This document shows, piece by piece, positions 10,936-30,444 of a DNA stretch of 64,000 nt. The notes below the pieces were generated by a model, which was given only the letters and a program-made list of their open reading frames with translations, was not told the DNA's origin and did not search any database. Position 1 is the stretch's first letter; every line of letters starts with the position of its first letter. Source of the DNA: Paraflavitalea soli (lineage in GTDB: Bacteria; Bacteroidota; Bacteroidia; Chitinophagales; Chitinophagaceae); NCBI RefSeq assembly GCF_003555545.1, contig NZ_CP032157.1:2546546-2610545 (forward strand). The letters are read 5' to 3'. The position numbers and the translations under genes were made by a program.

Positions 10936-10947
10936 TGATGGTTGTCA
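10936..10947. promoter_or_regulatory. Predicted Crp/FNR-type operator (TGA-N6-TCA), baeRF gene
   Basis: TGATGGTTGTCA, centred 72 bases before the ATG at 11014. It is one of thirteen matching palindromes in the 10.9-30.5 kb island. Confidence 0.6.
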
Positions 10948-11013
10948 AAATAAGGATTTACTAAAAGATCCAGGCTTACAGTCAGCCGGAATGATGACCA
11001 CCATCATTGCCAA

Positions 11014-12183
11014 ATGGCAAAGCAGCTGTTACATTTGGCAAAACTTCCTTACATGAAACAAACAATGATAGGGGGAGAAATAGTTGCTTTAATAGAAAAG
11101 AAAAAGGGAATTTGTATATCGATCATCGTTCCCGCACACCGCTTCTCCCCCGAAAAAAGGTCCGATAAAGAACGGCTGGATAAAAGTATTCAACGGGCAA
11201 TCAAACATTTATTGGATAACTATCCTCCGGAGCAAGTCATTCCCCTGATAGAAGCGATGGATGAGTTGTACCAACAGGTGGACTTTACTCATACTGAGGC
11301 AGGTATTGGCTTGTTTGTCAGCCCGGATATTCACCAGCTGGTCTATTTCATTTATCCTGTGAAGGAAAAAATGATGATCGGTGAATCATTTGATATCAGG
11401 GATCTGCTGTACCAGGATTATTATTCCCGGGTTTATTTTGTTTTGATGCTTTCGGAACAAGGAGCTAAACTATTCCAGGCACGGTTAAATAAACTGGAGG
11501 AGGTACACGATAGTCATTTCCCGCTTACCAACGAGGATGAATATGAGTACCAGCGGCCTATCTATGGATCAGCAGGGGGAAAGACCACTTTTATCAAAGC
11601 GATTGAAAGGGACAAATCGCAGCTGGAAGAGATACGATATACTCAATTCTTAAAAAAGGTAGTTGAAGGTTTGGATAACAACCTGACCCTGGATACGCCA
11701 ATGATCGTAACCGGTACAAAAAAGGATCTGGGATACTATAGTAAAGTGACTCATCATACTGATCATGTGTTCGGCCTTTTACCTGGAAACTTTTCACATC
11801 TTTCTCTCAACGAGTTGGGAGCACTGACCTGGCCAATTATGAAATCGTTCCTGGATGATTGGAAACAACAACAGGTCATAGCTTTGCAGGAAACACATGG
11901 TAAAGCACATGTACTTACCACCTTACAAGATATCTGGAAGGCGGTACAGGAAGGAAGGGGAGCAAGATTATTGGTAGAAAAAGATCTTTCCATACCCGCC
12001 TACCTTTCTAATGATAATGGTTATCAATTACATTTGCATCCTCCCAAGGGAAGACACCGGATATTGCCAGATGTAATTAACAGTCTGATGGAGACTGTAC
12101 TGGCAAAACATGGAGAGGTTATTATGCTGGAAAACGGGTTCCTGGAAAACTTTCAACGAATGCTCCTGGTTACCCGGTATTAG
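11014..12183 (+). CDS. baeRF-type (archaeo-eukaryotic release factor-like) stress protein
   Basis: A soluble protein of 389 residues. The region after residue 23 (EIVALIEKKKGICISIIVPAHR), the central YFVLMLSEQGAKLF with ARLNKLEEV, and the C-terminal half with a release-factor/L7Ae-like layout resemble the bacterial baeRF families, now often called ribosome hibernation factors. Family knowledge suggests binding to ribosomes or tRNA under stress; this is inference here. The start at 11014 is kept because the upstream operator then has the same 72-base spacing as at other genes in the island, but Met14 (11053) or Met18 (11065) fit the domain start better. The stop overlaps the stop of the convergent downstream gene by four bases. 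Confidence 0.7.
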   Translation: MAKQLLHLAKLPYMKQTMIGGEIVALIEKKKGICISIIVPAHRFSPEKRSDKERLDKSIQRAIKHLLDNYPPEQVIPLIEAMDELYQQVDFTHTEAGIGLFVSPDIHQLVYFIYPVKEKMMIGESFDIRDLLYQDYYSRVYFVLMLSEQGAKLFQARLNKLEEVHDSHFPLTNEDEYEYQRPIYGSAGGKTTFIKAIERDKSQLEEIRYTQFLKKVVEGLDNNLTLDTPMIVTGTKKDLGYYSKVTHHTDHVFGLLPGNFSHLSLNELGALTWPIMKSFLDDWKQQQVIALQETHGKAHVLTTLQDIWKAVQEGRGARLLVEKDLSIPAYLSNDNGYQLHLHPPKGRHRILPDVINSLMETVLAKHGEVIMLENGFLENFQRMLLVTRY

Positions 12184-13343
12184 GTTCGTCTGCGCCACCT
12201 GATATTGATCAAAACAGCGCCTGAGGTCAGGCATACAGACATTATCAAGAGGAGCCAGCCGAAGAAGGGAGAAAAGCTCAGGATCTTTAGCACCATAAAG
12301 GCGACCAATGCGGTAAAAACCATCCTCCAATAGCCCCAATTACTTTTAGCCCGGGCATTTAACCAGTTGGCTCCCACTACGGCAGTAATAACGGTGGCCA
12401 GGAGGACACATAATAAATATACTCCAATAAGAATGATTCCAACTGGTACACCTATTACTGAGGCAAAAGCCAGGAGAGCAGCAACCGGAACACCGATCCA
12501 AAAACCGATGCCAAAGCCTATTGCTTTCCAAGGTGTTAACCAAACGGTATTGCCAGCTCGCACCATTGTGGAAGAAAACAAATATTGAAGGATCATGATC
12601 ATTAATAATACCATGCCTGTATACCAAATTAACCCGGCAATGGTGGAGAACCCCAGAAAATACCACCGTCCGACCTGAATGCGCAGCGATGGGTCGAACA
12701 CCGCTTTCCCACCCCGCAACGCGTGTTTGAAGTCAACATCGTTGTCATTTGCCAACCAATAGCGCACCGAACTCCGGAAAATAGCCTGGTTACCAATAAG
12801 TATCCTGTTACCGGAAACGAGGACAGCCGGGCCGCCAATCTCTCCATTTACTTGTATTTTTTCGGCACGGCAATCAATGCCTTTGGCTACCGAACCATTG
12901 ATCACCAGGAGGCCGGAGGTACTTTGAACTGTTCCGGCCACCTGCCCGTTCAGGATCACATCTCCTCCGGCAGCCAATATATTGCCCACGGAGGCCCCTT
13001 GATCTATCGTAATGGTCCCTCCTGTTACTGCCACATCGCCAATAACCTGTTTTAGCACATGGATCTCGCCACCAGCACACCGGATATCATCCCCAACCGG
13101 TCCTTCAAAAACAACTTTGCCACCCAACACCAGTACATCACCGGTCACCGAATCGGTTAAATGAACAGTACCTCCGGCAACCACCAGGTCACCATGTACA
13201 GGCGCTTCCACCAGGACATTTCCGCCGGCTATATAGGTATCCTGCCAAACAGGGGCTTTCACCGTTACCGACCTGCCCAGGTACGTTTGCGCTGTTGCCG
13301 GTACGCTAGCCAATGCCAGCATGATCCCCAACAATTGTTTCAT
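12180..13343 (-). CDS. Exported bactofilin-like polymer-forming protein with membrane tail
   Basis: A 387-residue protein. After a signal peptide (cleavage near Ala18) comes a repetitive right-handed beta-helix-like region (about 25-180) with regular short turns such as GDLVVAGGTV, GDVLVLGGKV and GNILAAGGDV, as in polymer-forming (bactofilin/DUF583-like) proteins. The second half has several hydrophobic helices (about 225-385) and ends in RWRRRT. It is probably an envelope scaffold or membrane-stress protein; the exact function is unknown. It converges with the baeRF gene with a four-base overlap. A near-miss operator, TGATAATTGTCC, lies at 13461. Confidence 0.7.
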   Translation of the reverse strand: MKQLLGIMLALASVPATAQTYLGRSVTVKAPVWQDTYIAGGNVLVEAPVHGDLVVAGGTVHLTDSVTGDVLVLGGKVVFEGPVGDDIRCAGGEIHVLKQVIGDVAVTGGTITIDQGASVGNILAAGGDVILNGQVAGTVQSTSGLLVINGSVAKGIDCRAEKIQVNGEIGGPAVLVSGNRILIGNQAIFRSSVRYWLANDNDVDFKHALRGGKAVFDPSLRIQVGRWYFLGFSTIAGLIWYTGMVLLMIMILQYLFSSTMVRAGNTVWLTPWKAIGFGIGFWIGVPVAALLAFASVIGVPVGIILIGVYLLCVLLATVITAVVGANWLNARAKSNWGYWRMVFTALVAFMVLKILSFSPFFGWLLLIMSVCLTSGAVLINIRWRRRT

Positions 13344-13493
13344 GGAAAAAAGTTTTAGTGTATTGAAATACAGAGGCTATTGATACTGAATGAAGACAGG
13401 CCGGGGCTAGAGCTACACGCCAGCGGAGCCATAAACTATAACGTCCATCAACCACCGGATTGATAATTGTCCAGCCCGGCATATTAAAAGGAA

Positions 13494-13519: not shown

Positions 13520-13556
13520 ATTCCACTCCTGCAATAAACCCTGATCCAGGCTTGCC

Positions 13557-14231
13557 TTAATCTTCAAAAGAATACTCCGGCAACCTGATTTCCAGTTTAC
13601 TCTCAACCCGTGTAATACCGCCGGCATTCCAGGCAGCAGTTTCTGCATCCTCCTTTTCACTTAAGGAACGGACATACCCATTAAGCGTCACGCGGTGGTC
13701 GTTTATTTGTACTGCAATATGGCTGGCATCTATAGTGGCGCTGCGTTGAAATGAGTCCTTGATCTTTTGTTCTATGTCCTTTGCAGTTACGGCAGGTTGT
13801 ACAGTTATTGAATTCATAACAGAACGAACGCCCATCAGGTTTTCAACGGCCATGCGGGCACTGGTTTTCTGGTATTCCCAATCAACGGTACCTTCCAGTT
13901 TGACATGACCTTTTTCCACACTGACCTTAATCTTTTCTTCCTGTACCGCGCTGTGCCATTTCAATGCATTCAGTACGGCTTCAGCCAGTTCGCTATCTGT
14001 TTTCTGGTAGGAATGAGGCAGGCTAACCTGTATTTCTTCAGCCAGGGCTTTTACACCCGCCACTTTTTTGGCAGCCCGTTCTGCTTCCAGTTTCTGACCA
14101 AAGGTAACCACTGTACCGCTCAAGGTTACCACGCCATTTTTAGCAGCCACACCAATCTGGGCTGCCTGAAGGTATGGATGCCATTTCAATTCGTCCATCA
14201 CATCCTTCTGTAATTGAGCATCTGTTTTCAT
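13557..14231 (-). CDS. Triple-BON-domain protein
   Basis: A protein of 224 residues made almost only of three BON domains (about 3-70, 78-145 and 152-222). Each has the usual alternation of a short helix, a VKNGVVTLSGTV-type hairpin (here VAAKNGVVTLSGTV, VEKGHVKLEGTVD, INDHRVTLNGYV) and a helix with AERAAKKVAGV-like spacing. BON domains bind phospholipids and protect envelopes, as in OsmY, but no signal peptide is seen with this start. The start at 14231 (MKTDAQLQKD) was chosen because the longer frame adds 33 residues that do not look like protein. A TGA-N6-TCA palindrome lies 150 bases upstream. Confidence 0.88.
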   Translation of the reverse strand: MKTDAQLQKDVMDELKWHPYLQAAQIGVAAKNGVVTLSGTVVTFGQKLEAERAAKKVAGVKALAEEIQVSLPHSYQKTDSELAEAVLNALKWHSAVQEEKIKVSVEKGHVKLEGTVDWEYQKTSARMAVENLMGVRSVMNSITVQPAVTAKDIEQKIKDSFQRSATIDASHIAVQINDHRVTLNGYVRSLSEKEDAETAAWNAGGITRVESKLEIRLPEYSFED

Positions 14232-14380
14232 GATTGATATTTTTTTTGAGTAATTGAAAACAATTCTATGATATACTGGTGAACAGCTTTCGACAAGGCA
14301 CATGAATGATCTGTGATTATTCGATAACAAATATATTTTGACTGATACGCCTGATCAATGATGGCCATTACGGCATCAGC

Positions 14381-14392
14381 TGATCATGATCA
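14381..14392. promoter_or_regulatory. Predicted Crp/FNR-type operator, BON gene
   Basis: TGATCATGATCA, a perfect palindrome with the TGA-N6-TCA layout, centred 155 bases before the BON start. It borders a decayed alcohol dehydrogenase fragment. Confidence 0.45.
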
Positions 14393-14394
14393 TA

Positions 14395-14545
14395 CAGGGA
14401 GGGACAGATCAAGTACGTAAATCCCATCCAGGATATGCCCACCTGCTCCCCTATCAAATTTGTTACTCCTGCTCCTGTTTGCATCACCTCACCCACGATC
14501 TCATGCCCGGTATCAGGGCAACCTGGGCATGAAGGTCAGTACCCT
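14395..14545 (-). pseudogene. Remnant of a zinc-dependent alcohol dehydrogenase
   Basis: On the minus strand this stretch reads GTDLHAQVALIP, then after a one-base frameshift in a run of G bases, GHEIVGEVMQTGAGV and IGEQVGISWMG, ending at TYLICP. That is the catalytic-domain segment of zinc alcohol dehydrogenases, with the zinc-ligand region GHE and the later VGDRVGIPW-type turn. A stop codon precedes the GTDLH part and no N- or C-terminal gene body is left. The remnant therefore covers about 50 residues of a family that normally has about 340. Zinc alcohol dehydrogenases often accompany Usp/Hsp20 stress clusters, so the loss may be recent. Confidence 0.7.
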
Positions 14546-14705
14546 AGCTGATGTACATCATTGCTTGCAGGCTGGCCAGCGTGTAGCTTTAATCTATAAT
14601 ATTCATACGCCTATGATCGACCGGATTACGGGAAAGGAAAATGAAGTAGAAAAACAATGTGAAAGGTATCTATTGGATATGGAAGAAAAGAAAAGCAGTA
14701 AATAG
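14529..14705 (+). CDS. Possible small protein of 58 residues, unrecognised
   Basis: An open frame from ATG 14529 encodes 58 residues, with a hydrophobic middle (QRVALIYNIHTP) and a charged C-terminal helix (VEKQCERYLLDMEEKKSSK). A longer frame from 14460 exists, but its first 23 codons lie antisense to the alcohol dehydrogenase remnant and have no protein character. No family is recognised. It may be a real small gene of the stress island or another decayed fragment. It lies 44 bases before a polysaccharide deacetylase gene on the same strand. Confidence 0.35.
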   Translation: MKVSTLADVHHCLQAGQRVALIYNIHTPMIDRITGKENEVEKQCERYLLDMEEKKSSK

Positions 14706-16351: not shown

Positions 16352-16363
16352 TGATGTGAATCA
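16352..16363. promoter_or_regulatory. Predicted Crp/FNR-type operator, hsp20 gene
   Basis: TGATGTGAATCA, extended to the palindrome CTGAT-GTGA-ATCAG, centred about 94 bases before the hsp20 start. It is the best match in the window to an FNR-like TGAT-N4-ATCA site. Confidence 0.65.
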
Positions 16364-16440
16364 GGGTCTTTACTGACAAGCATCCTTTTAACCCACCCCT
16401 TTGCCAACGTAATTTTATTACAATCCAAACATAAAAAACA

Positions 16441-16451: not shown

Positions 16452-16898
16452 ATGTCTTCTAAAGAATTAACTAAAAGATCTGGCCAGTTCCCAGCCGTAT
16501 GGGACGATTTTTTCAAACCCTGGAACGATTGGTTTTCCAATGGGTTTTCGCAAATGAAACCAGTTACCATACCAGCGGTCAACATTACCGATTCGAACGA
16601 CGAATACAAACTATCGCTGGCTGCACCCGGGCTTAAAAAAGGCGATTTTCACATCGATGTAGATGGTAACATGCTCACCATCAGTTGTGAAAAAGAAGAG
16701 AACAAAGAAGAAAAAGACAGCCGGCATACGCGTAAGGAATACAACTATCAATCGTTCAGCCGCACCTTTACCATACCCGAAGAAGTTAGCAAAGAAAAGA
16801 TCGAGGCCAGTTATGATGATGGCATTTTGAAGGTAAAGCTGCCCAAAAAAGAAGAAGCCAAACGTATGGCCATCACAAAAAACATTCAGGTTAAATAG
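16452..16898 (+). CDS. Small heat shock protein Hsp20/alpha-crystallin
   Basis: A 148-residue ATP-independent holdase chaperone. The alpha-crystallin domain runs from about 45 to 138 and shows VNITDSNDEYKLSLAAPGLKK at the start, SRTFTIPEEV in the middle and the family hallmark DDGILKVKLPKKE near the end, followed by a short tail with an IxI-like NIQVK. The N-terminal arm is rich in Trp and Phe (WDDFFKPWNDWF), as in other bacterial class A members. It has its own predicted operator, a perfect Shine-Dalgarno sequence and its own terminator, so it is probably a monocistronic, strongly expressed stress gene. Confidence 0.95.
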   Translation: MSSKELTKRSGQFPAVWDDFFKPWNDWFSNGFSQMKPVTIPAVNITDSNDEYKLSLAAPGLKKGDFHIDVDGNMLTISCEKEENKEEKDSRHTRKEYNYQSFSRTFTIPEEVSKEKIEASYDDGILKVKLPKKEEAKRMAITKNIQVK

Positions 16899-17071: not shown

Positions 17072-17770
17072 TTAGTTTAACAATTGCTGCTCTTCCCGGT
17101 CAGCCAATACTTTTTTCCAGGCGGCCAGTCCAACCAGCAGGTCATCTTCCAGGAGGATAGATCTTTCGGCCAGCAGCAGTACATTGGCCAACAGCTCATT
17201 CAAATGCATACTCTCCTCTCCGTTTTTTACCAATTTTTCCCCGCCATAAAACACGGTGTCCATTTCTTCATAAAACCGATGCAATTCATCCTTAAAATAG
17301 GTCATCAGGGTCATCACTGCATCGATTTCTTCGGTGGTAATATAAAGGGCGCCGCAACAGCAGGATTCTGCTTCCATCGCCTGCAGGTTCCACAAGAATC
17401 TGCTGTATACCTGCCGCCTGAAACTACTGAGCACCTCCTGAAAATTATCCAAGGTCACCAACAAAACATTACCCGGTATATTTGCCTGCCCGTCTTTAAT
17501 TTGCCCTGCCAATAGCACATTCATTTGTTGCAGGCAGGCCAACAGCTTTTGATGTTGATCGCGGTGCTGATATCCAAAAATCAAAATGAATTGTTTGATA
17601 ACGGGCAGGTCGCTGATACGCAAAGCCGCCGTCTCAGCCACCGCCGCGGTTCTATCAGTTGACTGATAAGACCTTATGAATATGTCCTCATACTTCTGCT
17701 CTCCTGGCAGGAAGCAATGGGCATCCCGCCGGAAAGGCGCTGTCAGTTCCTTTAATCGATGCAGGTTCAT
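17072..17770 (-). CDS. Hypothetical helical protein of the stress island
   Basis: A soluble 232-residue protein that is mostly alpha-helical by composition. I recognise no family. Notable features are a CCCG cluster near residue 137, an HRDQHQKLL segment near 69, and an acidic EELHRFYEEMD-like region near 165-172, which together suggest a four-helix-bundle type protein, though no complete hemerythrin or ferritin motif is visible. It has a predicted operator (TGACCGGGGTCA) centred 77 bases upstream of its start, the same spacing as at other genes of the island, so it is probably under the same control. It converges with the hsp20 gene. Confidence 0.7.
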   Translation of the reverse strand: MNLHRLKELTAPFRRDAHCFLPGEQKYEDIFIRSYQSTDRTAAVAETAALRISDLPVIKQFILIFGYQHRDQHQKLLACLQQMNVLLAGQIKDGQANIPGNVLLVTLDNFQEVLSSFRRQVYSRFLWNLQAMEAESCCCGALYITTEEIDAVMTLMTYFKDELHRFYEEMDTVFYGGEKLVKNGEESMHLNELLANVLLLAERSILLEDDLLVGLAAWKKVLADREEQQLLN

Positions 17771-17841: not shown

Positions 17842-17853
17842 TGACCGGGGTCA
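17842..17853. promoter_or_regulatory. Predicted Crp/FNR-type operator, gene 17072-17770
   Basis: TGACCGGGGTCA, centred 77 bases before the start codon. Its last bases overlap a second inverted repeat, GTCAGTC-N6-CTGAC, at 17850-17867. Confidence 0.6.
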
Positions 17854-18042
17854 GTCACCAGGCTGACACCTCCCCGGTTGCACCATCCCTCCATAAAAGA
17901 GCTGATAACAGGTGCTTAACAAATTGACAACAATTGGTAAATATTAATCAATGGATCAAATTGGGAATACATAATTTAATTACCTTTAGTAAGGATCAAA
18001 CGCGTCTTCCCGGATGCGTTCTTACATCAAAAGGGTAACAGC

Positions 18043-19287
18043 ATGGAAGCCATACAAATTCCATCAGCACTCAACATTGATGAAAAACATCTTGTTGAAG
18101 CACTTTTTGTGCATGCATCCATTGGCATTATTGTAGCCAATGAAAACGGCGATATCATACTGGCCAATCCCTTTTTACTGGAACTTTTTGATTACCAGCC
18201 CAGCGAGCTATTGGGCAAGAAAATAGAGACGCTGATCCCTACCAGGTTTCATGATCGCCATGTAGGTCACCGGCAAAAGTTCATTGACCATTTACAGAAT
18301 CGCCCCATGGGCGCAGGTATGGACCTGTTTGGTTTGCGGAAAGATGGTGCCGAGTTCCCGGTAGAAGTGAGTCTTTGCCACTACAGTAATAAGGCAGGCA
18401 AATTTGTGGTAGCTTTCATTAACGACATCACCATCAGGAAATCGGCCGAACAGGAGATCCGGCGCCTGAATGACGAATTGGAGGTCATCGTTGAAGAGCG
18501 CACGCACCAGCTAAAAGAAACGCTGCATGAGCTCGAAGCCTCGAAAGAAGAGCTGACGCGGGCCCTGGGTAAAGAAATAGAATTGAATGAATTGAAATCC
18601 CGGTTTGTATCCCTGGCCTCTCATGAATTCAGAACACCGTTGAGTACGGTACTATCGTCGACCTATCTTATCCAGCAATACCATACCACCGAAGAACAGT
18701 CGAAAAGGCAAAAGCATATCGACCGGGTGATCTCCTCGGTGAGCACATTAACCGATATACTCAATGATTTCCTGTCGGTAGGCAAGATCGAAGAAGGAAA
18801 GATCACGGTAAAACTGGCTACCTTCAATTTCAAGGAGCTGGTATCCCGTATCCTCGATGAGATCCGCAATATCCAGAAGCCGGGACAAATGATCCGGTAC
18901 CAACATGAAGGCCCTGAACTGGTATTACTTGATTCCACCCTCCTGAAACATATTATCCTTAACCTGTTATCCAACGCCATCAAATTTTCTCCGGAGCATT
19001 CGGTGATTGCTGTAAACAGTCAGTTGCTTGGTGATCAATTGACCCTTTCGGTCAAAGACCAGGGCATTGGTATCCCGCAGGAAGACCAGCAACATTTGTT
19101 TGAGCGTTTTTTCAGGGCTACCAATGTTACCAATATCCAGGGAACCGGTCTGGGCCTGCACATTGTAGCCAAGTACGCCGAATTGATGAACGGCTGCATT
19201 CATTGTGAAAGCCAGGAAAACCTGGGCACCGACATGAAGGTCACCTTTACTATTCCTGGTGATACGGAAGATCCAGCCGAAGATTAA
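18043..19287 (+). CDS. Soluble PAS-domain sensor histidine kinase
   Basis: A 414-residue cytoplasmic sensor kinase without membrane segments. A PAS domain spans about 15-130 and carries the RPMGAGMDLFGLRKDGAEFPVEVSL turn found in many redox or small-molecule-sensing PAS domains; the haem-binding His of FixL is not at the equivalent place. A coiled coil (about 132-180) leads to the dimerisation helix with SHEFRTPLS, where His194 should be phosphorylated, and to an HATPase_c domain with N-box NLLSNAIKFS and G-boxes DQGIGIP and GTGLGLHI. The response regulator gene starts 35 bases after its stop, so the pair forms a two-component system. It probably senses the signal that controls the stress island. 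Confidence 0.92.
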   Translation: MEAIQIPSALNIDEKHLVEALFVHASIGIIVANENGDIILANPFLLELFDYQPSELLGKKIETLIPTRFHDRHVGHRQKFIDHLQNRPMGAGMDLFGLRKDGAEFPVEVSLCHYSNKAGKFVVAFINDITIRKSAEQEIRRLNDELEVIVEERTHQLKETLHELEASKEELTRALGKEIELNELKSRFVSLASHEFRTPLSTVLSSTYLIQQYHTTEEQSKRQKHIDRVISSVSTLTDILNDFLSVGKIEEGKITVKLATFNFKELVSRILDEIRNIQKPGQMIRYQHEGPELVLLDSTLLKHIILNLLSNAIKFSPEHSVIAVNSQLLGDQLTLSVKDQGIGIPQEDQQHLFERFFRATNVTNIQGTGLGLHIVAKYAELMNGCIHCESQENLGTDMKVTFTIPGDTEDPAED

Positions 19288-19322: not shown

Positions 19323-20369
19323 ATGGGCATGAAGAAAATCCTGCTGATCGAAGACAACCAGCATATCCGCGAAAATACAGCAGAGATACTGGAATTGGCC
19401 AACTATACGGTGCATGTAGCCGAAAACGGGAAAACCGGGGTCGAGATCGCCCTACAGGAAAAACCCGACCTGATCGTTTGCGACATCATGATGCCGGTAC
19501 TCGATGGTTATGGGGTTTTGCATTTGTTGCATAAAAACGCGGACCTGCGCAATACTCCTTTTATTTTCCTCACTGCCAAGGCCGAGCGAACGGATATGCG
19601 CAAGGCCATGGAAATGGGTGCCGACGATTACCTTACCAAACCTTTTGAGGCCACCGAACTGCTCAATGCGATCGAAACCCGGTTAAGAAAAACTGACATG
19701 TTAAGGCAGGTCGATGGCACCGGACTGGCAGGGATGGACGCGCTTATGCAAATCGCCAAAGGAGCCACCACCCTGGAAAGTTTTGCATCGGACCGGGATA
19801 CGATGCTTTATCGTAAAAAACATACCATTTACCAGGAAGGCAACCGGCCTTCCAGGCTCTATTTTGTACAAAAAGGGAAGGTAAAAACGTACAAGACCAA
19901 TGAAGATGGAAAAGAATTCATTGTAGGGCTTTACCAGGAAGGTGATTTTTTGGGCCATGTGGCTCTCCTGGAAGGCAGCAATTATAAGGAAACGGCTGCA
20001 GCCCTGGAAGATGCCGAGCTGGCCCTGATACCCCGGCATGACTTCGAGGAATTGATGTCGTCGAACCGGGAAATAGCCCAAAAATTCATTACCCTCCTGG
20101 CCAAAAATATTACAGATATGGAGGAGCAGCTGGTCCGTGTAGCCTATTACTCTTTAAGAAAAAAGGTAGCCCATGCCCTTACTACGCTATTCCAAAAGTA
20201 CAAAGGAGACATTAAGATAAGCCGTGAGAACCTGGCTACCCTGGCAGGTACTGCTACCGAATCATTAATCAGGACCCTGAGTGACTTTAAAAGTGAGCAT
20301 CTGATCGATATACAGGATGGGACCATAAAGATTCTGAATGAATCGAAACTGCAGAACCTGACGATGTAG
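19323..20369 (+). CDS. Response regulator fused to a Crp/FNR-type DNA-binding module
   Basis: A 348-residue protein that joins an N-terminal receiver domain (about 3-120; phospho-acceptor Asp54 in VCDIMMP, Lys in TKPFEA) to a cyclic-nucleotide-binding-like domain (about 150-265) and a C-terminal Crp-type winged helix (about 270-340). The recognition helix GTATESLIRTL keeps Glu313 and Arg317 with the spacing by which CRP and FNR read a TGA half site. No Cys cluster for an iron-sulphur centre is seen, so the input is probably phosphorylation by the PAS kinase encoded just upstream. Met3 is an alternative start. This is the best candidate regulator for the TGA-N6-TCA sites around it. Confidence 0.92.
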   Translation: MGMKKILLIEDNQHIRENTAEILELANYTVHVAENGKTGVEIALQEKPDLIVCDIMMPVLDGYGVLHLLHKNADLRNTPFIFLTAKAERTDMRKAMEMGADDYLTKPFEATELLNAIETRLRKTDMLRQVDGTGLAGMDALMQIAKGATTLESFASDRDTMLYRKKHTIYQEGNRPSRLYFVQKGKVKTYKTNEDGKEFIVGLYQEGDFLGHVALLEGSNYKETAAALEDAELALIPRHDFEELMSSNREIAQKFITLLAKNITDMEEQLVRVAYYSLRKKVAHALTTLFQKYKGDIKISRENLATLAGTATESLIRTLSDFKSEHLIDIQDGTIKILNESKLQNLTM

Positions 20370-20385: not shown

Positions 20386-20766
20386 TCAATAAAGGGTTTC
20401 GATAAAACCATTGAACTTCACCCGCAGATCACTGAAAGCAATAGCCAGCAACTTCAGGTCTTTACGCAGCTTTTTTTGTTTATGTAGGATCATCTTCATC
20501 GTCCCCTCATCGTGCATGTATTTGATCAACAACTTTTCCAGGCTGGCCGCTTCCTGCCGCATAATACCGATCACATCATCTTTTTGCAACAGCCATTCCT
20601 GGTATTGCTCTACCGTGTTCATCTGGTCAGCGGAAAAAACTGTTTCCTGCAGGGCTTCGGCCAGTCTTGTTTTTAAGATGACGTTCTCCTGCAAAAGAAA
20701 TTCCAGTAAGCGTTGCGCTGCCTCGTTCTCATATTGAAGTTGCCTGATCTTTATTCTATTTTTCAT
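20386..20766 (-). CDS. Small coiled-coil protein, unknown function
   Basis: A 126-residue protein that is almost entirely helical with heptad-like Leu, Ile and Val spacing (ENEAAQRLLEFLLQENVILKTRL and later KKLRKDLKLLAIAF), so probably a coiled coil. No family is recognised. The start at 20766 (MKNRIKIRQL) was preferred over 20844 because the extra 26 residues cover the predicted operator at 20832-20843 and look non-coding. With this start the operator centre is 71 bases upstream, matching other genes in the island. It converges with the regulator gene. Confidence 0.65.
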   Translation of the reverse strand: MKNRIKIRQLQYENEAAQRLLEFLLQENVILKTRLAEALQETVFSADQMNTVEQYQEWLLQKDDVIGIMRQEAASLEKLLIKYMHDEGTMKMILHKQKKLRKDLKLLAIAFSDLRVKFNGFIETLY

Positions 20767-20831
20767 ACCAGATACTTCGCAACGTACCCTACCTCCGGAA
20801 TTGAATAAAGGAGATAAATCAGTAACGGATA

Positions 20832-20843
20832 TGATCTTTATCA
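20832..20843. promoter_or_regulatory. Predicted Crp/FNR-type operator, gene 20386-20766
   Basis: TGATCTTTATCA, centred about 71 bases before the chosen start. It also lies just beyond the stop codon of the small proline-rich gene (20853-21026). Confidence 0.6.
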
Positions 20844-20852
20844 TAAGGCGAT

Positions 20853-21328: not shown

Positions 21329-21421
21329 ATAGTTGATTAAATAGATTGAAAAGGAATTAAATACCTGTATCCTGACTGACCTAAAAATACGCTGCCAGCT
21401 TACCCTGCAGCAATGATGCCC

Positions 21422-21439
21422 GTCAGTCTTTCACCTGAC
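21422..21439. repeat. Inverted repeat GTCAGTC-N6-CTGAC, copy 2
   Basis: GTCAG and CTGAC arms separated by eight bases. The same layout, with the same first seven bases GTCAGTC, occurs at 17850-17867. Both lie upstream of minus-strand genes in the stress island. Confidence 0.4.
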
Positions 21440-21472
21440 ATTACTTGCCTTCGGCCCCATCAATGCCGGCGC

Positions 21473-21484
21473 TGACCACCGTCA
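21473..21484. promoter_or_regulatory. Predicted Crp/FNR-type operator, zinc-ribbon gene
   Basis: TGACCACCGTCA, centred about 150 bases before the zinc-ribbon start. It is farther upstream than most of the other sites. Confidence 0.4.
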
Positions 21485-21521
21485 TAGAATCGCCGCTCAA
21501 TGCATCCTACTTTGGTCAACA

Positions 21522-22339: not shown

Positions 22340-23179
22340 TTACCATCCATTACGATTTTGAGGTACATGCATTGCCATCAACGGCACATGGTTGTGCAAT
22401 ACAAACTGGCGGGTATGGCTACGGTGCAGCAGGGCTTCCAGGAAACGATGCCTTTTGGGCAGTATAATGAGCAGGTCCAGCGCATGCTGTTGTACAAAAT
22501 CAAGAATGCCTTCATCTATATCTTCCTGTTGAATAAAATGGAATTGTGGTTTCACTGTTTTCAGGTGGTCGAGCAGGGAACCGGCGCCCGATAAGGCAGC
22601 CCTGTTGATTGATTCTTCCCTGCCAATATGCAGCACGTGGAGTTCGGCATTAAAATCTTTGATGAGGTGTTCTATCTCCTGAAAAGGCACTGTTCTGACT
22701 ACCTGTTCAAAATCGCAGGCCAGGCCAATCCTGCGGATAATATTAAAGTGTGCCTCCGGGGGTACACAGATCACCGGCCAGGACAGCTGCTTCATGGTAA
22801 TGATGGCATGGCTGCCAAAAAGCACTCTTTCTGCCCCGGTAGTACCCGTTGCACCAATCACCACAGAATAAGGATTCAACCGGGCACAGGCGCCTTTCAA
22901 TTCGGTAAGGTAGATACCTACCCTCACTTCCCATCTTACATGGATGGGGCGCATCGATTGCCGCATAACCATCCGTTTCAAGGCCACCATTTCCAGTTCG
23001 GCCTCTTTTTTCCAGGTGTCATACATCAGGGGCACCATGATGTCGCCCATATTTACGGGCGGAACATATACGTGCAGGAGAAACAATTCGGCATGAACGG
23101 CTGCCGCCATGTCGGCCGCATACAGGGCGGCATTCCTCGCTATCTGCGACAGATCGGTAGCTACAATAATTGTACTCAT
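22340..23179 (-). CDS. Universal stress protein with two Usp domains
   Basis: A 279-residue cytoplasmic protein with tandem UspA domains (about 1-145 and 150-275). The first starts with TIIVATDLSQIARNAALYAADMA, and GATGTTGAERVLFGSHA corresponds to the ATP-binding loop G-2x-G-9x-G-S. The second half is more divergent. It is a close paralogue of the gene at 29525-30364, sharing for example LLIxLPKRxxxxxALLHxSHTRQFVLHxHVPLMAxHxP at the C-terminus. Two predicted operators lie 75 and 97 bases upstream. It is divergent from ftsH, so the region between could drive both. Confidence 0.92.
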   Translation of the reverse strand: MSTIIVATDLSQIARNAALYAADMAAAVHAELFLLHVYVPPVNMGDIMVPLMYDTWKKEAELEMVALKRMVMRQSMRPIHVRWEVRVGIYLTELKGACARLNPYSVVIGATGTTGAERVLFGSHAIITMKQLSWPVICVPPEAHFNIIRRIGLACDFEQVVRTVPFQEIEHLIKDFNAELHVLHIGREESINRAALSGAGSLLDHLKTVKPQFHFIQQEDIDEGILDFVQQHALDLLIILPKRHRFLEALLHRSHTRQFVLHNHVPLMAMHVPQNRNGW

Positions 23180-23248: not shown

Positions 23249-23260
23249 TGATGACGCTCA
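23249..23260. promoter_or_regulatory. Predicted Crp/FNR-type operator, usp/ftsH region
   Basis: TGATGACGCTCA, centred 75 bases before the Usp start at 23179. Confidence 0.5.
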
Positions 23261-23270
23261 AACGATATAC

Positions 23271-23282
23271 TGATTTGGGTCA
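23271..23282. promoter_or_regulatory. Predicted Crp/FNR-type operator, usp/ftsH region
   Basis: TGATTTGGGTCA, ten bases beyond the previous site, centred 97 bases before the Usp start. Confidence 0.5.
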
Positions 23283-23415: not shown

Positions 23416-23427
23416 TGACAGGAGTCA
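23416..23427. promoter_or_regulatory. Predicted Crp/FNR-type operator, ftsH
   Basis: TGACAGGAGTCA, extended to the palindrome CTGAC-AGGA-GTCAG, centred 118 bases before the chosen ftsH start. Confidence 0.55.
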
Positions 23428-23539
23428 GCAGGCTCTTTGACCGTCCTCATTGATTATGGAAAAGATCTGGTGTTCTTTTGAGTTATCAATCATACCTGAA
23501 ACGAACCCGTATTTATATCCTTCAGTAGCTCTTAAAATA

Positions 23540-25504
23540 ATGACTATGCCATTGGATAAACAGCCAGAACAACCAGCACAACAACCAGGACAACCCAACC
23601 GGTTCAGGTTTTTCTGGTGGATATTTACCCTTACCGGTATTCTCCTGTTGCCCTTGCTGGTGAATACTGTTTTCCGTAATCCCGCTGAAATTTCCTGGTC
23701 TGATTTCGAACAACGGCTATTGAGCAGGAATGTAGTGGACCGGATAACGGTAGTAAATGGAGATTATGCAGAGATATACATTAAAAGATCCTTCGGCCAG
23801 GATCCTCTCTTTAAGGAAGCTTTTAAACCGCTGATCGGCAAAGAACCTTATGAAGGCCCGCATTACAAACTCAATATAGGCTCAGTGGAAAGCTTCGACC
23901 GGAAACTGGAGGCGGCACAACAAAAATATCATACGGCCGGGGTGGCGGTAAGCTATGAAAAAAGATCCGGCTGGTTTTGGGGCTTACTTGGCTGGACAAT
24001 CCCCTTACTGGTAATGTTCTTCTGGTGGCAATACATGGTCAGGCGATCGGGCGGCGGTTCTTCTGCATTCAACTTTGGTAAGTCTACTGCTACGCTGCTG
24101 GATAAGGCCAATAAAAGCACGGTCACGTTTGAACAGGTGGCCGGCCTTGAGGAAGCCAAAATGGAAGTACGGGAGATCGTTGACTTTCTTAAAAGCCCGC
24201 AGGCCTTTACACGCCTGGGCGCGAAGATACCCAAGGGGGTGATATTGGTAGGCCCTCCCGGTACGGGCAAAACGCTGCTGGCCCGGGCAGTGGCGGGAGA
24301 AGCGCAGGTTCCTTTTTTTACGATCTCCGGATCAGAGTTTGTTGAAATGTTTGTAGGAGTGGGTGCCTCCCGCGTACGCGACTTGTTCAAAAGAGCCAAG
24401 GAAAAAGCGCCTTGTATCGTTTTTATTGATGAGATCGATGCCATTGGACGGTCAAGAGGCAGGAATGCCCTGTTCACCGGGGCCAGTGACGAACGTGAAA
24501 GTACCCTCAATCAACTGTTGACGGAAATGGATGGGTTTGGCACCAATACGGGGGTTATTGTACTGGCAGCTACCAATCGTGCTGATATGCTGGACCCGGC
24601 ATTATTGCGCCCGGGCAGGTTCGACAGGCATATCTATCTCGAACTGCCCAACCTGACGGAAAGGGAGGCTATCTTTAAAGTACACCAGCGTCCATTGGTC
24701 ATGGACGATAGCATCGATACAAAAGTGCTGGCAGGGCAAACACCTGGTTTTTCGGGCGCCGACATTGCCAACATCTGTAATGAAGCAGCGCTGATCGCGG
24801 CCCGGCATAAGGAAGAGAAGATCAGCCGGCAGGATTTTTTCGATGCGATCGACCGCATCGTGGCGGGCCTTGAAAAGAAAAGCAAGATCATTTCGCCCGA
24901 AGAGAAAAGGGTGATCGCTTTCCACGAAGCCGGACATGCAGTAGCCAGTTGGCTGCTCACACATATCGATCCGCTGGTAAAAGTTTCTATCATACCCAGG
25001 GGCAAATCGCTGGGCGCCGCCTGGTACCTGCCCGAAGAAAAACAATTACGCACACGCACTTCTTTTTATGAGCACCTCAGTGCTACCCTGGCTGGCCGGG
25101 CGGCAGAAGAAATTATATTCGGAGAGATCTCATCCGGCGCCCTTGACGATCTGGAAAAAGCAACCAAAGAAGCCTATATGATGGTGGCCTGTTATGGATT
25201 CAGCAAAAAGATAGGCCACATTAGTTTTTATGATTCTACCGGTCAGCACGACAGTTCTATTCAAAAGCCCTATAGTGAGGAGACAGGCAGGCTCATCGAT
25301 GAGGAAGTGCGCAACCTGATCAGCGAAGCTTATACGCAGGCCAACAACCTGCTGGTGCAGCATAAGCCAGTGCTGATCAGGCTGGCCGACAAACTGTTGG
25401 AAAAAGAAGTATTGTTGAAAGAAGACCTGGAAAAGATACTGGGAGAGCGAGCCAGGAATACTGAATATGATCAAACGGCTTTAGAGGCGGTGTATACCAC
25501 CTGA
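23540..25504 (+). CDS. ftsH: ATP-dependent zinc metalloprotease FtsH
   Basis: A 654-residue membrane-bound AAA protease that extracts and degrades membrane and damaged proteins. Two membrane helices (about 18-38 and 148-168) flank a periplasmic domain. The AAA module has Walker A GPPGTGKT (238-245), Walker B IVFIDEID and the second region of homology with [20 protein letters not shown]. The zinc site HEAGH lies at 462-466. The start at 23540 was preferred because the longer frame from 23450 covers upstream control sequence and adds 30 residues without family support. A genome usually has a housekeeping ftsH as well; a stress-island copy with its own operator may be a specialised paralogue. 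Confidence 0.95.
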
Positions 25505-25527: not shown

Positions 25528-25539
25528 TGACCGGGTTCA
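25528..25539. promoter_or_regulatory. Predicted Crp/FNR-type operator, gene 25661-26173
   Basis: TGACCGGGTTCA, centred about 127 bases before the start at 25661 and only 24 bases after the ftsH stop. Confidence 0.45.
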
Positions 25540-25660
25540 TACTTGCTATTGATCACCATCATTGTTTCGCGGTTCGGGTCAGTATTAGATTTACGGAAAT
25601 ACTTATTGTTGGAAAATTCCATGACAACAAACATTATCAATCATTCAAAATTGCAGGAAC

Positions 25661-26230: not shown

Positions 26231-26268
26231 CTTTGGCCGGTGATCATGGCCACTATCATCAAAGATCA

Positions 26269-26280
26269 TGATCGTTATCA
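26269..26280. promoter_or_regulatory. Predicted Crp/FNR-type operator, usp gene 26328-27227
   Basis: TGATCGTTATCA, centred about 53 bases before the chosen ATG; it is closer to the gene than the other sites. Confidence 0.5.
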
Positions 26281-26327
26281 GCCAAAAAAACCTGGCGGGA
26301 GCATAATTTTAATACAATACATTGTAT

Positions 26328-27227
26328 ATGAAAAACATCCTCATGGCCACTGATTTTTCGCAAGCAGCCAGTAATGCGGCAGCTTATGGTGTTGAACTGG
26401 CCAAAACAATGAATGCCCGGCCAATACTGTTCAGTGCCTGCGAACATGCACTGGTACCTGCTTCGGAAATAGCCGTAGTAATACGGCGGGAGGAATTACA
26501 GGACCAGGTGCAACAACAACTGGCCGAAGATGCCCGTATGCTTGCAGCTATTCATGATCAGCCTGTATTTACGTGCTGCCATACAGGACCGGCCCATACT
26601 GCGTTGCTGGCGGCAATCAGGGAGCAACAGGCAGATATCCTCATTGCAGGCATGAAAAACAAGCGGAAAGTAAAGCACCGGCTGATAGGCAGTACCGTAA
26701 GCAGCTGGATAGGGAAGCTACCCATTCCCATGATCATTGTGCCTGAAAATATACCCTTTGCTTATATTGCCAAAATAGCCCTGGCGCAGGCCATCAATAA
26801 AAATAACACGGCTGAAGCCGATGAACATGTACTCATTGCGCTGCGCGAATTGGGTGAACGGTTTCATGCGCAATTGTACTTTGTAAGGATAGGTGCTAAT
26901 AACCTGCCCGGCGCCGATGAGCTGATCCGGCCGCCTGCCAGCCTGGCTTCCCTGCTAGAAACACCGGCACCTCATTTCGAATATATAACAGGTACTGACG
27001 TGGCTGCATCCCTGACGCAATACATCGAAGACAATAACATCAATCTCCTCGCCATCATGCCACACCGGCATGGCTGGTTCGAAAGAATGTTTATACAAAG
27101 TACTACCCGATCGATGGTCCTGGATTGCCCCGTTCCCTTATTGATCCTGCCACCCTCGCAAAGCAGTCCTGCACACCGCCATGCTACCAACATGGTACAA
27201 GAACAACTGGAAAACTCAATTGCTTAA
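26328..27227 (+). CDS. Universal stress protein with two Usp domains, divergent member
   Basis: A 299-residue tandem Usp protein. MKNILMATDFSQAASNAAAYGVELA is a typical first strand and helix, and the ATP-loop region is partly changed (AGMKNKRKVKHRLIGSTVS). The second half ends in LAIMPHRHGWFERMFIQSTTRSMVLDCPVPLLIL, similar in layout to the other two Usp proteins here but clearly more distant. ATG 26328 is used; the frame also has a TTG six bases earlier. It faces the lipoprotein gene 27342-28076 convergently. Confidence 0.88.
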   Translation: MKNILMATDFSQAASNAAAYGVELAKTMNARPILFSACEHALVPASEIAVVIRREELQDQVQQQLAEDARMLAAIHDQPVFTCCHTGPAHTALLAAIREQQADILIAGMKNKRKVKHRLIGSTVSSWIGKLPIPMIIVPENIPFAYIAKIALAQAINKNNTAEADEHVLIALRELGERFHAQLYFVRIGANNLPGADELIRPPASLASLLETPAPHFEYITGTDVAASLTQYIEDNNINLLAIMPHRHGWFERMFIQSTTRSMVLDCPVPLLILPPSQSSPAHRHATNMVQEQLENSIA

Positions 27228-28076: not shown

Positions 28077-28154
28077 TGGTTTATTTTTTTAGTTAAATAC
28101 CTGATCTATTGACCAAATACGTGTAAGCTACTGCCTGCCAGCGGGGAAATCCAA

Positions 28155-28166
28155 TGACCGCAATCA
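28155..28166. promoter_or_regulatory. Predicted Crp/FNR-type operator, lipoprotein gene
   Basis: TGACCGCAATCA, centred 84 bases before the start at 28076. Its end overlaps the stop codon of the upstream flippase-like gene. Confidence 0.5.
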
Positions 28167-29240
28167 GTAGTGACTGTGATGGAGAACACCAGCATCCGGC
28201 CGGTCTGCCTGTTTTTTCCACCGGCGGAACAAGACCAATCCAATCGGTATCGGAAGCCAGAAGGACAATAACCTGTACAACAGGGTAATGACAACAGCAT
28301 GAGTAGCCGGCACACCCAATGCGATTAGAAAATAACCCATGGTTCCTTCGTACAATAGCAAACCACCGGGCAGAAAAGGCATCAAGGTCGCAATCCTTCC
28401 CCCTGCCAAGGCAAGCAAACAGTAGATGGGGTGAACAGGCATACCCAATCCGACTGACAGGGTATAAATGGTAGCAGCATCAGCGGCCACTACCAGCAAT
28501 TGCCACCAATAGGACAGGACCACTGCCCGGCGATGGATCTGTAAAAGATAATGGATGTCAAATACACCTGTACTGCCATGACGTAACATAGGAGTGAACT
28601 GGCTGTTTTTTTGCCAATGCCGCAGCATGCGCCATTTTTTCAACTTTGCCAGTATCGATTGCATCCAGTGGCCCTTGCCTGCCATGACCACGCCAATACC
28701 AAACAATAGATATACGCCCATACCCACCAGTAGGATAATGGCTACTTTATTGTCCACACGATATAGGAAATTGTTGCCGGCCAGTAGTAGCAGGAAAAAA
28801 GATTCCATAGCAGCATAGAAGATTATAAGCTCGGAAAGGATCAGGGAAAACACGGTCTGCGAATCAAGTCCAAAGCGTTCCAGCAGGCGGTACATAAAGG
28901 CATTACCACTGATCCCTGCACTGGGCACGGTTTCGTTGAAGAACAGGGAAATAATGCAGGACTTTGTCATGGTCCACTGATCCGGTACCCTGGCCCTGAC
29001 ATCGGTATGTAAAAGAGTAAGGTATACCTGTGCATTAAGCCAATAAGTTAAGCTTTGAGCGGCAATAGCCAATAACAGCCACCAAGCATTTACTTTCCGC
29101 AATAAGCGCAACTCCTGCCCGATTGCCGGCAGGTTATAAAAAACTATAATGGCTACTAATACAAATAGTACAAACCACCCCAACAATTTGACTCCAGACA
29201 GGGGCAATCCTGCATGTTGATCATCGGCCATAATTATCAA
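28164..29240 (-). CDS. Flippase-like (LPG synthase membrane-domain) integral membrane protein
   Basis: A 358-residue protein with about eight hydrophobic segments. It shows features of the UPF0104/lysylphosphatidylglycerol synthase transmembrane family: NAWWLLLAIAAQSLTYWLNAQVY near the second segment, FNETVPSAGISGNAFMYRLL in the middle and a late ALAGGRIATLMPFLPGGLLLYEGTM motif. Such proteins are thought to move lipids or glycolipids across the membrane; there is no synthase domain here. Met4 is an alternative start. It is the last gene of a probable operon with the DUF2892 and Usp genes upstream (gaps 39 and 29 bases). Confidence 0.85.
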   Translation of the reverse strand: MIIMADDQHAGLPLSGVKLLGWFVLFVLVAIIVFYNLPAIGQELRLLRKVNAWWLLLAIAAQSLTYWLNAQVYLTLLHTDVRARVPDQWTMTKSCIISLFFNETVPSAGISGNAFMYRLLERFGLDSQTVFSLILSELIIFYAAMESFFLLLLAGNNFLYRVDNKVAIILLVGMGVYLLFGIGVVMAGKGHWMQSILAKLKKWRMLRHWQKNSQFTPMLRHGSTGVFDIHYLLQIHRRAVVLSYWWQLLVVAADAATIYTLSVGLGMPVHPIYCLLALAGGRIATLMPFLPGGLLLYEGTMGYFLIALGVPATHAVVITLLYRLLSFWLPIPIGLVLFRRWKKQADRPDAGVLHHSHY

Positions 29241-29279
29241 TTACGGGTAGAACTTGCACCCAAAACAGCTCCTGAACAA

Positions 29280-29495
29280 CTAACTGTGTTGCTTCCTGAT
29301 CCGGCAGGAATTGATGCCAAGCAAGCTATATAGTGGACACAAGCCTATCAAGCTGGTCAATACAAACACCATGCTTACCACCAGCAAAACAATGCCCCAA
29401 ATGCCGGTTACCACCTGGTTGTAATACAGATAAACCATCAAGGCGGCCAACAATAGACGAACTATGCGGTCCGCTGCTCCCATATTCTTTTTCAT
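29280..29495 (-). CDS. DUF2892 (YgaP-like) small membrane protein
   Basis: A 71-residue protein with two hydrophobic segments. The start MKKNMGAADRIVRLLLAALM and the late LTSLIGLCPLYSLLGINSC fit the DUF2892/YgaP transmembrane family, whose conserved GxCPLYxLLGINTC end is clearly present. In YgaP this segment anchors a rhodanese, but here it stands alone. It lies 29 bases after a Usp gene and 39 bases before the flippase-like gene, so an operon is likely. Confidence 0.9.
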   Translation of the reverse strand: MKKNMGAADRIVRLLLAALMVYLYYNQVVTGIWGIVLLVVSMVFVLTSLIGLCPLYSLLGINSCRIRKQHS

Positions 29496-29524
29496 ATCAT
29501 TTTTTTAAAGTATTGTATAAAAAA

Positions 29525-30364
29525 TTATAGCCCGGTCCTTATTCTTGGTGCATGCAATGCCATCAGGGGCACATGGCTGTGCAATACAAACTGCCGGGTG
29601 TGGCTCTTGTGCAGTAAAGCATTGATCAGGCTTTTCCGTTTGGGTAAAACGATCAGGAGGTCGACATGGATCTTCTCGGCAAAGTCGAGAATACCCTGGT
29701 CTACATCATCAGTGCTTAAAAAATGAAATTTTAAGGATTGTGGTTTCAGCTTTTCCTGAAGCAATTGTGAAGCTGCTTTTACCTCAGGATCATAGATGGT
29801 TTTGCTGCCAACATTCAATATGTGCAACCCGGCCTTAAAATCCTTGAGGAGCGTAGCTATTTCCTGGAAGGGGACAGTTTCGCGTACCAATTCCAGGTCG
29901 CAGGCCAGTCCAACTTGTTGAATACCACTAAAGGTGGTATCGGCGGGCACGGTAAGAACCGGCCATTCCAGGTGCTTTAAGGTATGCACCGCATTGCTAC
30001 CGAACAGTATGCGCCCGGCGGCCGTTTTTCCGGTACAACCGATCACCACCGCATAAGGTTTTTTCTCTTCACACACCCTTTCGAGGGTACTGAAATAACT
30101 TCCCATGTATACCTGACCACGGATGGATAACTTTCCTTTCGTCTCCTGTTCGAGCTGAACACGCAACTTTAACAAAGCAGCTTCCGCATCCTCCTGCCAT
30201 CGGCCAATATCCACCGGCAGGCTGATATCGCCATAGCTGGCGGGTAGTTCATACGCATGCATCAGGTAAAGTTCTGCCTGTACAACCAAAGCCATCGAAG
30301 CGGCATAGGAAGCAGCATGGGCAGCAACAGTTGAAAAATCCGTAGCTACAACGATCGTTCCCAT
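29525..30364 (-). CDS. Universal stress protein with two Usp domains
   Basis: A 279-residue tandem Usp protein, close paralogue of the gene at 22340-23179 and equal in length. It starts MGTIVVATDFSTVAAHAASY, and GCTGKTAAGRILFGSNA forms the nucleotide loop of the first domain. The second domain ends in LPKRKSLINALLHKSHTRQ. The gene is the first of a probable three-gene operon with DUF2892 and the flippase-like protein. The operator TGATAAAGATCA is centred 74 bases upstream of its start. Confidence 0.92.
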   Translation of the reverse strand: MGTIVVATDFSTVAAHAASYAASMALVVQAELYLMHAYELPASYGDISLPVDIGRWQEDAEAALLKLRVQLEQETKGKLSIRGQVYMGSYFSTLERVCEEKKPYAVVIGCTGKTAAGRILFGSNAVHTLKHLEWPVLTVPADTTFSGIQQVGLACDLELVRETVPFQEIATLLKDFKAGLHILNVGSKTIYDPEVKAASQLLQEKLKPQSLKFHFLSTDDVDQGILDFAEKIHVDLLIVLPKRKSLINALLHKSHTRQFVLHSHVPLMALHAPRIRTGL

Positions 30365-30432
30365 AATATTGATTTCCCATAAAGCTACCAGCAGTACAAT
30401 ATCTACCCAATGATTACCGGCAGCGTATTACC

Positions 30433-30444
30433 TGATAAAGATCA
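30433..30444. promoter_or_regulatory. Predicted Crp/FNR-type operator, usp-DUF2892-flippase operon
   Basis: TGATAAAGATCA, centred 74 bases before the Usp start at 30364. It is the last site of the series on the right side of the island. Confidence 0.6.

Follow-up and report, generated by a model that had tools for sequence, protein, structure and literature searches.

We analysed a 64,000-nucleotide (nt) stretch of the Paraflavitalea soli genome (contig NZ_CP032157.1; the window), in which an island between positions 10400 and 33100 carries genes for universal stress proteins (Usp), Hsp20, a BON-domain protein, the FtsH protease and a baeRF family 3 protein. The island also encodes a sensor histidine kinase, followed on the same strand by a regulator in which a receiver and a Crp-type DNA-binding protein are joined (REC-Crp; Table 1). 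The initial annotation had described thirteen TGA-N6-TCA palindromes in this island as a candidate Crp/FNR-type regulon. We found that such palindromes are the halves of a double operator, with two palindromes standing exactly 22 bp apart at a fixed distance from a promoter element, and that this operator is associated with REC-Crp genes in related genomes.

All thirteen palindromes were exact and lay where they had been placed by the initial annotation. The stricter form TGAY-N4-RTCA fitted eleven of them, the sites at 23249 and 25528 being those that did not fit, and the island holds further sites that had been missed, including those at 10646, 10995, 14549, 21414, 23438 and 25550. Across the 64-kb window there were 37 matches to TGA-N6-TCA versus 15.4 expected, a count reached in none of 100 shuffles. 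Intergenic DNA, delimited throughout by one simple gene caller, contained 16 sites in 3,836 bp of the island (4.17/kb), 2 in 5,401 bp of the remaining window and 9 in 49,371 bp (0.18/kb) of a control set of 20 stretches of 20 kb from the same genome (400 kb out of 8.44 Mb), so that the island density was ~23-fold over background. For each of five control motifs (reversed, inverted or with other spacers), the island intergenic DNA contained between 0 and 2 sites. The enrichment had a Poisson P of ~8e-17 for an island chosen after the fact, and independent support came from a second, sister island in the same genome, with 17 sites in 4,657 bp of intergenic DNA. In addition, 20 regulator-anchored stretches from relatives had 99 sites in 40,966 bp versus 13 in 41,021 bp of same-genome controls, and genome-wide TGAYN4RTCA occurred 688 times, versus 317 for the reversed control. 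The motif was rare in unrelated intergenic DNA, as represented by the 20 sampled stretches, and on this point the proposed regulon held.

The operator unit is not the single palindrome, as had been assumed, and is replaced here by the 22-bp pair. All thirteen listed sites had a partner at this spacing with no more than two mismatches of 6. Among 327 sites in the window island, the second island and 20 stretches with homologous regulators, 34 pairs had the 22-bp spacing, and any other spacing up to 100 bp was found at most 4 times. Twenty further stretches repeated this pattern, their 221 sites forming 24 such pairs and at most 3 at any other spacing up to 60 bp, as did 79 further loci, where 830 sites formed 84 such pairs and at most 4 at any other spacing up to 80 bp. 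The last set came from a separate search, in which the 80 best of 584 related stretches were retained; L169 was excluded from this spacing count and from the kinase scans because it is on the same contig as L085, while tblastn tallies were counted over all 80 loci. Apart from this, none of these loci overlapped the earlier stretches over 1 kb at 90%, and L236 and L239 were alike.

The window island contains 3 perfect pairs, 12 with at most one mismatch of 12 and 20 with at most two; outside the island, no 22-bp pair was found in the window at up to two mismatches. The corresponding counts in the 400 kb of controls were 0, 0 and 13. In the complete genome there were 11 exact pairs versus 0 in the reversed control and, at up to one mismatch, 43 pairs versus 4, of which 12 lie in the window island and 10 in the second island. 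The other 21 are scattered over the genome and, apart from three exact ones, may be largely noise. The consensus of 94 intergenic pairs was TGAY-N4-RTCA, N10, TGAY-N4-RTCA (34 bp). As the pairs were selected on TGA and TCA, only the Y/R positions and the flanks are informative in this consensus, and the flanks carry little information.

The double operator stands at a fixed distance from the Bacteroidota sigma-A -7 box, TANNTTTG. When operators were oriented towards the next gene, with divergent cases entered in both directions, 46 of 102 operator-gene combinations had a match to this box (at most one mismatch) beginning at +23, versus 9 at the next offset (+24). When the better orientation was taken, 83 of 112 pairs had the box at +22 to +24, versus a null of 51 in 1784 tests per orientation at other offsets. 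The 79 further loci (147 pairs, scored both ways) gave 124 box matches at +23, distributed over 62 loci, and no more than 11 at any other offset. In the P. soli genome the composite pattern TGAYN4RTCA-N23-TANNTT had 14 matches, 10 of them inside or bordering the two islands, versus 2 for the control. The sigma-A box TAnnTTTG of Flavobacterium psychrophilum occupies positions -12 to -5, as given in the part of PMC9723704 used here, and on this basis the palindrome centres are predicted at approximately -41.5 (proximal) and -63.5 (distal).

These data strongly support a Crp-type activator geometry. A shared activator geometry had been proposed from six sites that lie 71-84 bp before start codons; the geometry stands, but the start-codon distance mixes promoter-proximal and promoter-distal palindromes and was rejected as its key, the fixed distance being that to the -7 element. 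With up to two mismatches in the -7 box, promoters were predicted in the window for the BON, hsp20, FtsH and baeRF genes, the three usp genes, the lipoprotein gene 27342 and genes 12180, 14750, 17072, 20386, 21059 and 25661. The promoter placement for baeRF, FtsH and gene 20386 would imply translation from an internal ATG of the longest frame.

Table 1. Regulatory genes, double operators and candidate target genes in the window
Feature	Position	Strand	Remarks
Sensor histidine kinase, PAS-HisKA-HATPase	18043..19287	+	FixL/DosP-type PAS; proximal heme His; Met at FixL distal-Arg position
REC-Crp regulator (FixJ-FixK-like fusion)	19323..20369	+	receiver, cNMP-binding fold and Crp helix-turn-helix
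Double operator, 1 mismatch	10646..10679	+	perfect -7 box TATATTTG; predicted transcription start 10716; no gene behind
Double operator, 1 mismatch	10914..10947	.	precedes baeRF; in that direction a weak -7 match with 3 mismatches
Double operator, 2 mismatches	10973..11006	+	then perfect -7 box TACATTTG; baeRF promoter if ATG 11053 is the translation start
Weak double operator, 2 mismatches	13439..13472	-	upstream of gene 12180-13343
Double operator	14359..14392	-	BON-domain gene; -7 box TATATTTG
Double operator, 2 mismatches	14527..14560	+	before polysaccharide deacetylase gene 14750; -7 box TAGCTTTA
Double operator	16352..16385	+	hsp20; -7 box TAATTTTA; kept upstream of hsp20 homologues
Double operator, 2 mismatches	17842..17875	-	gene 17072-17770
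Double operator	20810..20843	-	gene 20386-20844; within longest frame, consistent with start at ATG 20766
Double operator, 2 mismatches	21414..21447	-	zinc-ribbon gene 21059; -7 box TATTTTTA
Double operator, 2 mismatches, with -7 box	21451..21484	+	no + strand gene behind
Perfect double operator	23249..23282	-	Usp gene 22340; -7 box TAGATTTG
Perfect double operator	23416..23449	+	FtsH, consistent with start at ATG 23546; -7 box TTCTTTTG
Perfect double operator	25528..25561	+	gene 25661; -7 box TAGATTTA
Double operator	26247..26280	+	Usp gene 26322; -7 box TAATTTTA
Double operator	28155..28188	-	lipoprotein-like gene 27342
Double operator	30411..30444	-	Usp gene 29525; -7 box TAGCTTTA; site 30433 is the distal half; kept in G001 homologue
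baeRF family 3 gene, candidate target	11014..12183	+	
BON-domain gene, candidate target	13557..14330	-	
Hsp20 gene, candidate target	16452..16898	+	
Usp gene, candidate target	22340..23179	-	
FtsH protease gene, candidate target	23450..25504	+	
Usp gene, candidate target	26322..27227	+	
Usp gene, candidate target	29525..30364	-	

Sites upstream of homologous genes were kept in the fetched regulator stretches, in agreement with the regulon proposed initially. Counting a pair with at most two mismatches of 12 upstream of a homologue, we found one before 10 of 11 hsp20 homologues, 8 of these with a -7 box, while only 1 of 592 background genes had both a pair and a -7 box. Upstream pairs were also present for homologues of gene 20386 (4/5), usp22340 (3/5), usp26322 (2/4), usp29525 (2/3), BON (2/3), the zinc-ribbon gene (2/3), deacetylase 14750 (2/3), baeRF (2/2, at 22-25% identity), gene 17072 (1/1) and gene 25661 (1/1). 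The counts for the lipoprotein (0/1), deacetylase 15502 (0/2) and the histidine kinase (6/33) were low or zero, and gene 12180, FtsH, Zip and the LPG-synthase-like gene had no homologue in the fetched stretches. The REC-Crp homologues themselves had a pair in front in 14 of 43 cases, 5 of these with a -7 box.

The number of exact pairs in a genome followed the presence of REC-Crp, scored at E <=1e-60. Among 59 genomes, that of P. soli included, the 40 with REC-Crp had a mean of 6.00 exact pairs (240 in total; reversed control 8) and the 19 without it a mean of 0.89 (17 in total; control 4), a difference with a P of 2e-6 that is not corrected for relatedness. In a draw of 198 genomes from the phylum, 32 genomes had REC-Crp, all of which belong to the class of the window or are more closely related, and these had a mean of 4.03 pairs versus 0.71 in 17 same-class genomes without REC-Crp; the 149 more distant genomes had 0 to 3 pairs each. 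This association suggests that the REC-Crp protein is the operator binder. In G107, G157, G161, G172, G184, G188 and G236 (family f24), which have REC-Crp without an exact 22-bp pair, the operator may differ. Among the best 80 of 584 loci, the nearest named ones belong to Chitinophagaceae, many of them to Chitinophaga.

In the second island, at 2.29-2.34 Mb of the same genome, a regulator paralogue with 55% identity is encoded next to genes of a cbb3 oxidase, namely a COX1-FixO fusion (CcoNO), FixP, FixG and FixH, and a gene for a FixI-like ATPase. Genes for acetyl-CoA hydrolase, a pyridoxamine oxidase-like protein, Usp and a cation ATPase were also identified. Exact pairs precede the FixI-like and acetyl-CoA hydrolase genes, and the oxidase gene has a one-mismatch pair and a perfect -7 box, with transcription predicted to start 209 nt upstream. 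The exact pair at 2321105 in this island had no -7 box within one mismatch. Outside the second island, an exact pair lies between hemA and the ferrochelatase gene, which point away from each other; a -7 match was seen towards ferrochelatase only, at an offset of +24 and a distance of 169 nt from the start of that gene. The operator is therefore present at both cbb3 oxidase and heme genes, as in a FixK regulon. A census of 81 proteins downstream of pairs (8 of 89 were dropped as short or cut at an end) included 9 copper-ATPases, 9 Usp, 7 CcoNO and 7 Hsp20. Beside the cbb3 locus of L162, which has the double operators, lies the gene of a Crp protein (L162:11994-12704) that stands alone and has a cluster of cysteines at its N terminus, possibly a case in which the oxygen sensor was exchanged on the same operator. 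In addition, a sequence at L028 ~10271-10423 (G000:C1:7740271-7740423) is 57% identical to the regulator helix-turn-helix, has an internal stop and lies ~500 bp from an exact double operator; it is possibly the remnant of a third regulator copy.

Analyses of the regulator 19323 identified the Pfam domains Response_reg (1.1e-29), cNMP_binding (3.6e-24) and HTH_Crp_2 (1.4e-12), and its cNMP-binding fold and Crp-type helix-turn-helix place it in the Crp/FNR family. Its predicted fold matches Crp proteins at the level of the domains, their arrangement being uncertain (predicted template modelling score, pTM, 0.40). The phospho-acceptor D54 and the conserved K106 of a response regulator were invariant in both of our alignments, which comprised 13 regulators and 30 regulators (that of the window and 29 from the best-80 loci). 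The same was true (13/13 and 30/30) of Glu313 and Arg317, the recognition-helix residues to which the initial annotation had drawn attention and which we take to be suited to TGA half sites. FixJ combines a receiver with a LuxR-type output, and the output here is Crp-type. The only cysteine of the protein is C53, in the receiver; direct oxygen sensing of the FNR type was rejected as there is no N-terminal cysteine cluster.

The best solved relatives of the PAS domain of kinase 18043 were a multi-sensor kinase, followed by FixL (2e-10) and DosP. The proximal heme His of FixL is aligned in the window kinase, in 25 of 30 kinases of our first look and in 59 of 72 from the best-80 loci, and it was present in 86 of 99 kinases adjacent to the regulator versus 5 of 14 non-adjacent ones. 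The FixL signature was recognised in three distant kinases, and the kinase of one distant relative matches FixL at 4e-30. The distal residue varies among R, M and L, with R in 15 of 30 kinases. Based on these alignments, heme binding by the PAS domain is likely.

Together, these data make it probable that the island belongs to a low-oxygen system resembling FixL-FixJ-FixK, in which the FixJ and FixK functions reside in one protein that acts through double operators. The Crp-type regulon of the initial annotation is retained in this reading, most likely as a low-oxygen, FixK/FNR-like regulon rather than one of general stress, since in other parts of the genome these operators are found at genes for cbb3 oxidase and heme. 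Kinase 18043 would sense falling oxygen, or another heme ligand, through its FixL/DosP-like heme PAS domain and phosphorylate the receiver domain of the regulator, so that phosphorylation would act directly on a Crp-type activator. Two REC-Crp dimers, probably of the 19323 product and its paralogue, would then occupy adjacent sites on the same face of the DNA, separated by two helical turns. The proximal dimer, in the class II position near -41.5, and the distal dimer, near -63.5, would jointly activate RNA polymerase. One set of genes turned on in this way would comprise the cbb3 oxidase, copper-ATPase and heme genes, and the other the Usp, Hsp20, BON and FtsH protection genes.

Whether the palindromes are a compositional or coding artefact was considered, as TGA-N6-TCA is a short pattern that occurs at ~0.3/kb across whole control stretches. 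However, the contrast between 4.17/kb and 0.18/kb in intergenic DNA, the recurrence of one spacing only in three data sets and the fixed promoter distance make this extremely improbable, and an origin by chance or composition was rejected on the intergenic controls, the reversed motifs and the spacing. Other observations weigh against an oxygen-responsive REC-Crp protein as the binder. In the window operator scan no clear operator faced the kinase-regulator operon, and the pair at 21451 faces no gene, contrary to a simple story. An exact pair was missing in 7 of the 32 REC-Crp genomes of the phylum draw. Exact pairs were found at cbb3 loci of G035 and G204, whose CcoNO are 75 and 81% identical to that of P. 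soli, with no REC-Crp match at 1e-60, which indicates that another Crp/FNR protein can use the double operator. The operators of G204 adjoin, at the cbb3 locus, the gene of a stand-alone Crp protein whose N terminus bears a cysteine cluster. P. soli itself encodes several Crp-like proteins, one of them 51% identical and without a receiver, and these two stand-alone proteins share the recognition-helix motif TATES-IR. These proteins favor the alternative that the operators are real but mainly bound by a stand-alone FNR- or Crp-type protein encoded elsewhere in the genome, with REC-Crp as a minor or competing binder. We consider this distinctly unlikely, since pair counts track the presence of REC-Crp, the operators cluster at both REC-Crp genes of the genome and pairs stand before a third of the REC-Crp homologues.

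The signal itself could also be other than oxygen, such as nitric oxide, redox state or another PAS ligand, with the same regulator and operators serving a general stress response. The window targets (Usp, Hsp20, BON and FtsH) would suit this alternative, as would the distal PAS position, which is Met in the window kinase where FixL has Arg (R214/R220) and is variable among relatives; for this reason we refer to the kinase as FixL-like only and not as FixL. Nor is the proximal His special to the kinases beside the regulator: when the count is confined to PAS domains with a good alignment to FixL, 82 of 83 adjacent kinases have it, and so do 4 of 4 non-adjacent ones. Against this, the proximal His is conserved, some orthologous kinases have a FixL-type PAS, and in Flavobacterium psychrophilum the cbb3 and heme genes were induced by low oxygen, as reported in the part of PMC9723704 used here. 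As the genes for the cbb3 oxidase and for its assembly bear the same operators, and heme genes do too, we regard a signal other than oxygen as unlikely. The low-oxygen reading can be extended, though with chances we would put slightly short of even, to a class-wide oxygen response driven by phosphorylation of REC-Crp, which would have to bind as two dimers in contact with each other, on a double operator of invariable 34-bp layout and set distance from the -7 box. The operator would have been kept and the sensor exchanged between lineages, a FixL-like kinase with REC-Crp serving in most and a cysteine-bearing FNR-like protein in G204.

The FNR/ANR regulons have TGA-N6-TCA-type half sites, class II positions near -41.5 and micro-oxic targets; the system described here has such half sites, a predicted class II position and probable micro-oxic targets. 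Unlike FNR/ANR, the regulator has no Fe-S cysteines, it appears to be kinase-controlled and a second dimer is predicted at -63.5 as a rule. In the mycobacterial DosR dormancy regulon, a two-component system linked to oxygen controls genes for Usp, Hsp20 and baeRF-type proteins, as is proposed here, but DosR has a NarL-type output domain and another operator. In rhizobia and Caulobacter, the FixL-FixJ-FixK and hFixL-FxkR-FixK systems share with the P. soli system a FixL-type PAS kinase, a Crp/FNR output without the FNR cysteines and cbb3 and heme targets, as far as the parts consulted of PMC7888657 and PMC4999443 describe this biology, including the anaerobox TTGAT-N4-ATCAA. Universal stress proteins are among the low-oxygen proteins of Bradyrhizobium in the excerpted account of PMC6515984. 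Unlike in FixL-FixJ-FixK, the receiver and Crp domains are in one protein here, so that no transcriptional step from FixJ to FixK is needed; in addition, the 22-bp double operator is the rule, the promoter has a Bacteroidota -7 element and the outer T/A of the anaerobox is weak.

Crp-family regulators are known from Bacteroidales as HcpR and MalR, the HcpR2 motif being GTAACnnnnGTTAC and its target hcp; in the portions of PMC1274295 and PMC8510549 available to us, neither a receiver domain nor a double operator is described for them. The words Fnr and Crp are absent from the main text of PMC9723704 on F. psychrophilum. Among the papers listed by our literature searches, none was seen to name this REC-Crp regulon or the 22-bp double operator, which is weak evidence of novelty as subscription journals were mostly outside the coverage. 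For Chitinophagaceae and their relatives, the system offers an oxygen regulon that can be put to the test, together with a sharp pattern (double palindrome, N23, TANNTTTG) by which the regulon can be searched for in these genomes. It would also provide a clean case in which to study how class II activation works at promoters of Bacteroidota, and its two proteins would exemplify the shortening of a cascade that otherwise has three steps (FixL, FixJ, FixK).

Two of the island operators are directed at DNA other than the start of a gene. The double operator and -7 box at 21451-21520 point at the 3' end of the Zip gene and may produce an antisense transcript. Between 10646 and 10831, an operator and perfect -7 box are followed by ~115 nt without a gene and a bidirectional terminator-like hairpin (10808-10831), making this region a candidate for a low-oxygen small RNA. 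The candidate RNA had a modest fold z of -2.1, and no match to it was found in the other fetched loci, G001 stretches included. The left-flank gene of the island was not found in four congeners, in a search without a positive control. Lastly, a 104-nt direct repeat (86% identical) is present at both island ends, at 10524-10627 and 30507-30610; these are its only two copies in the genome, and they flank the island as if marking an insertion or duplication.

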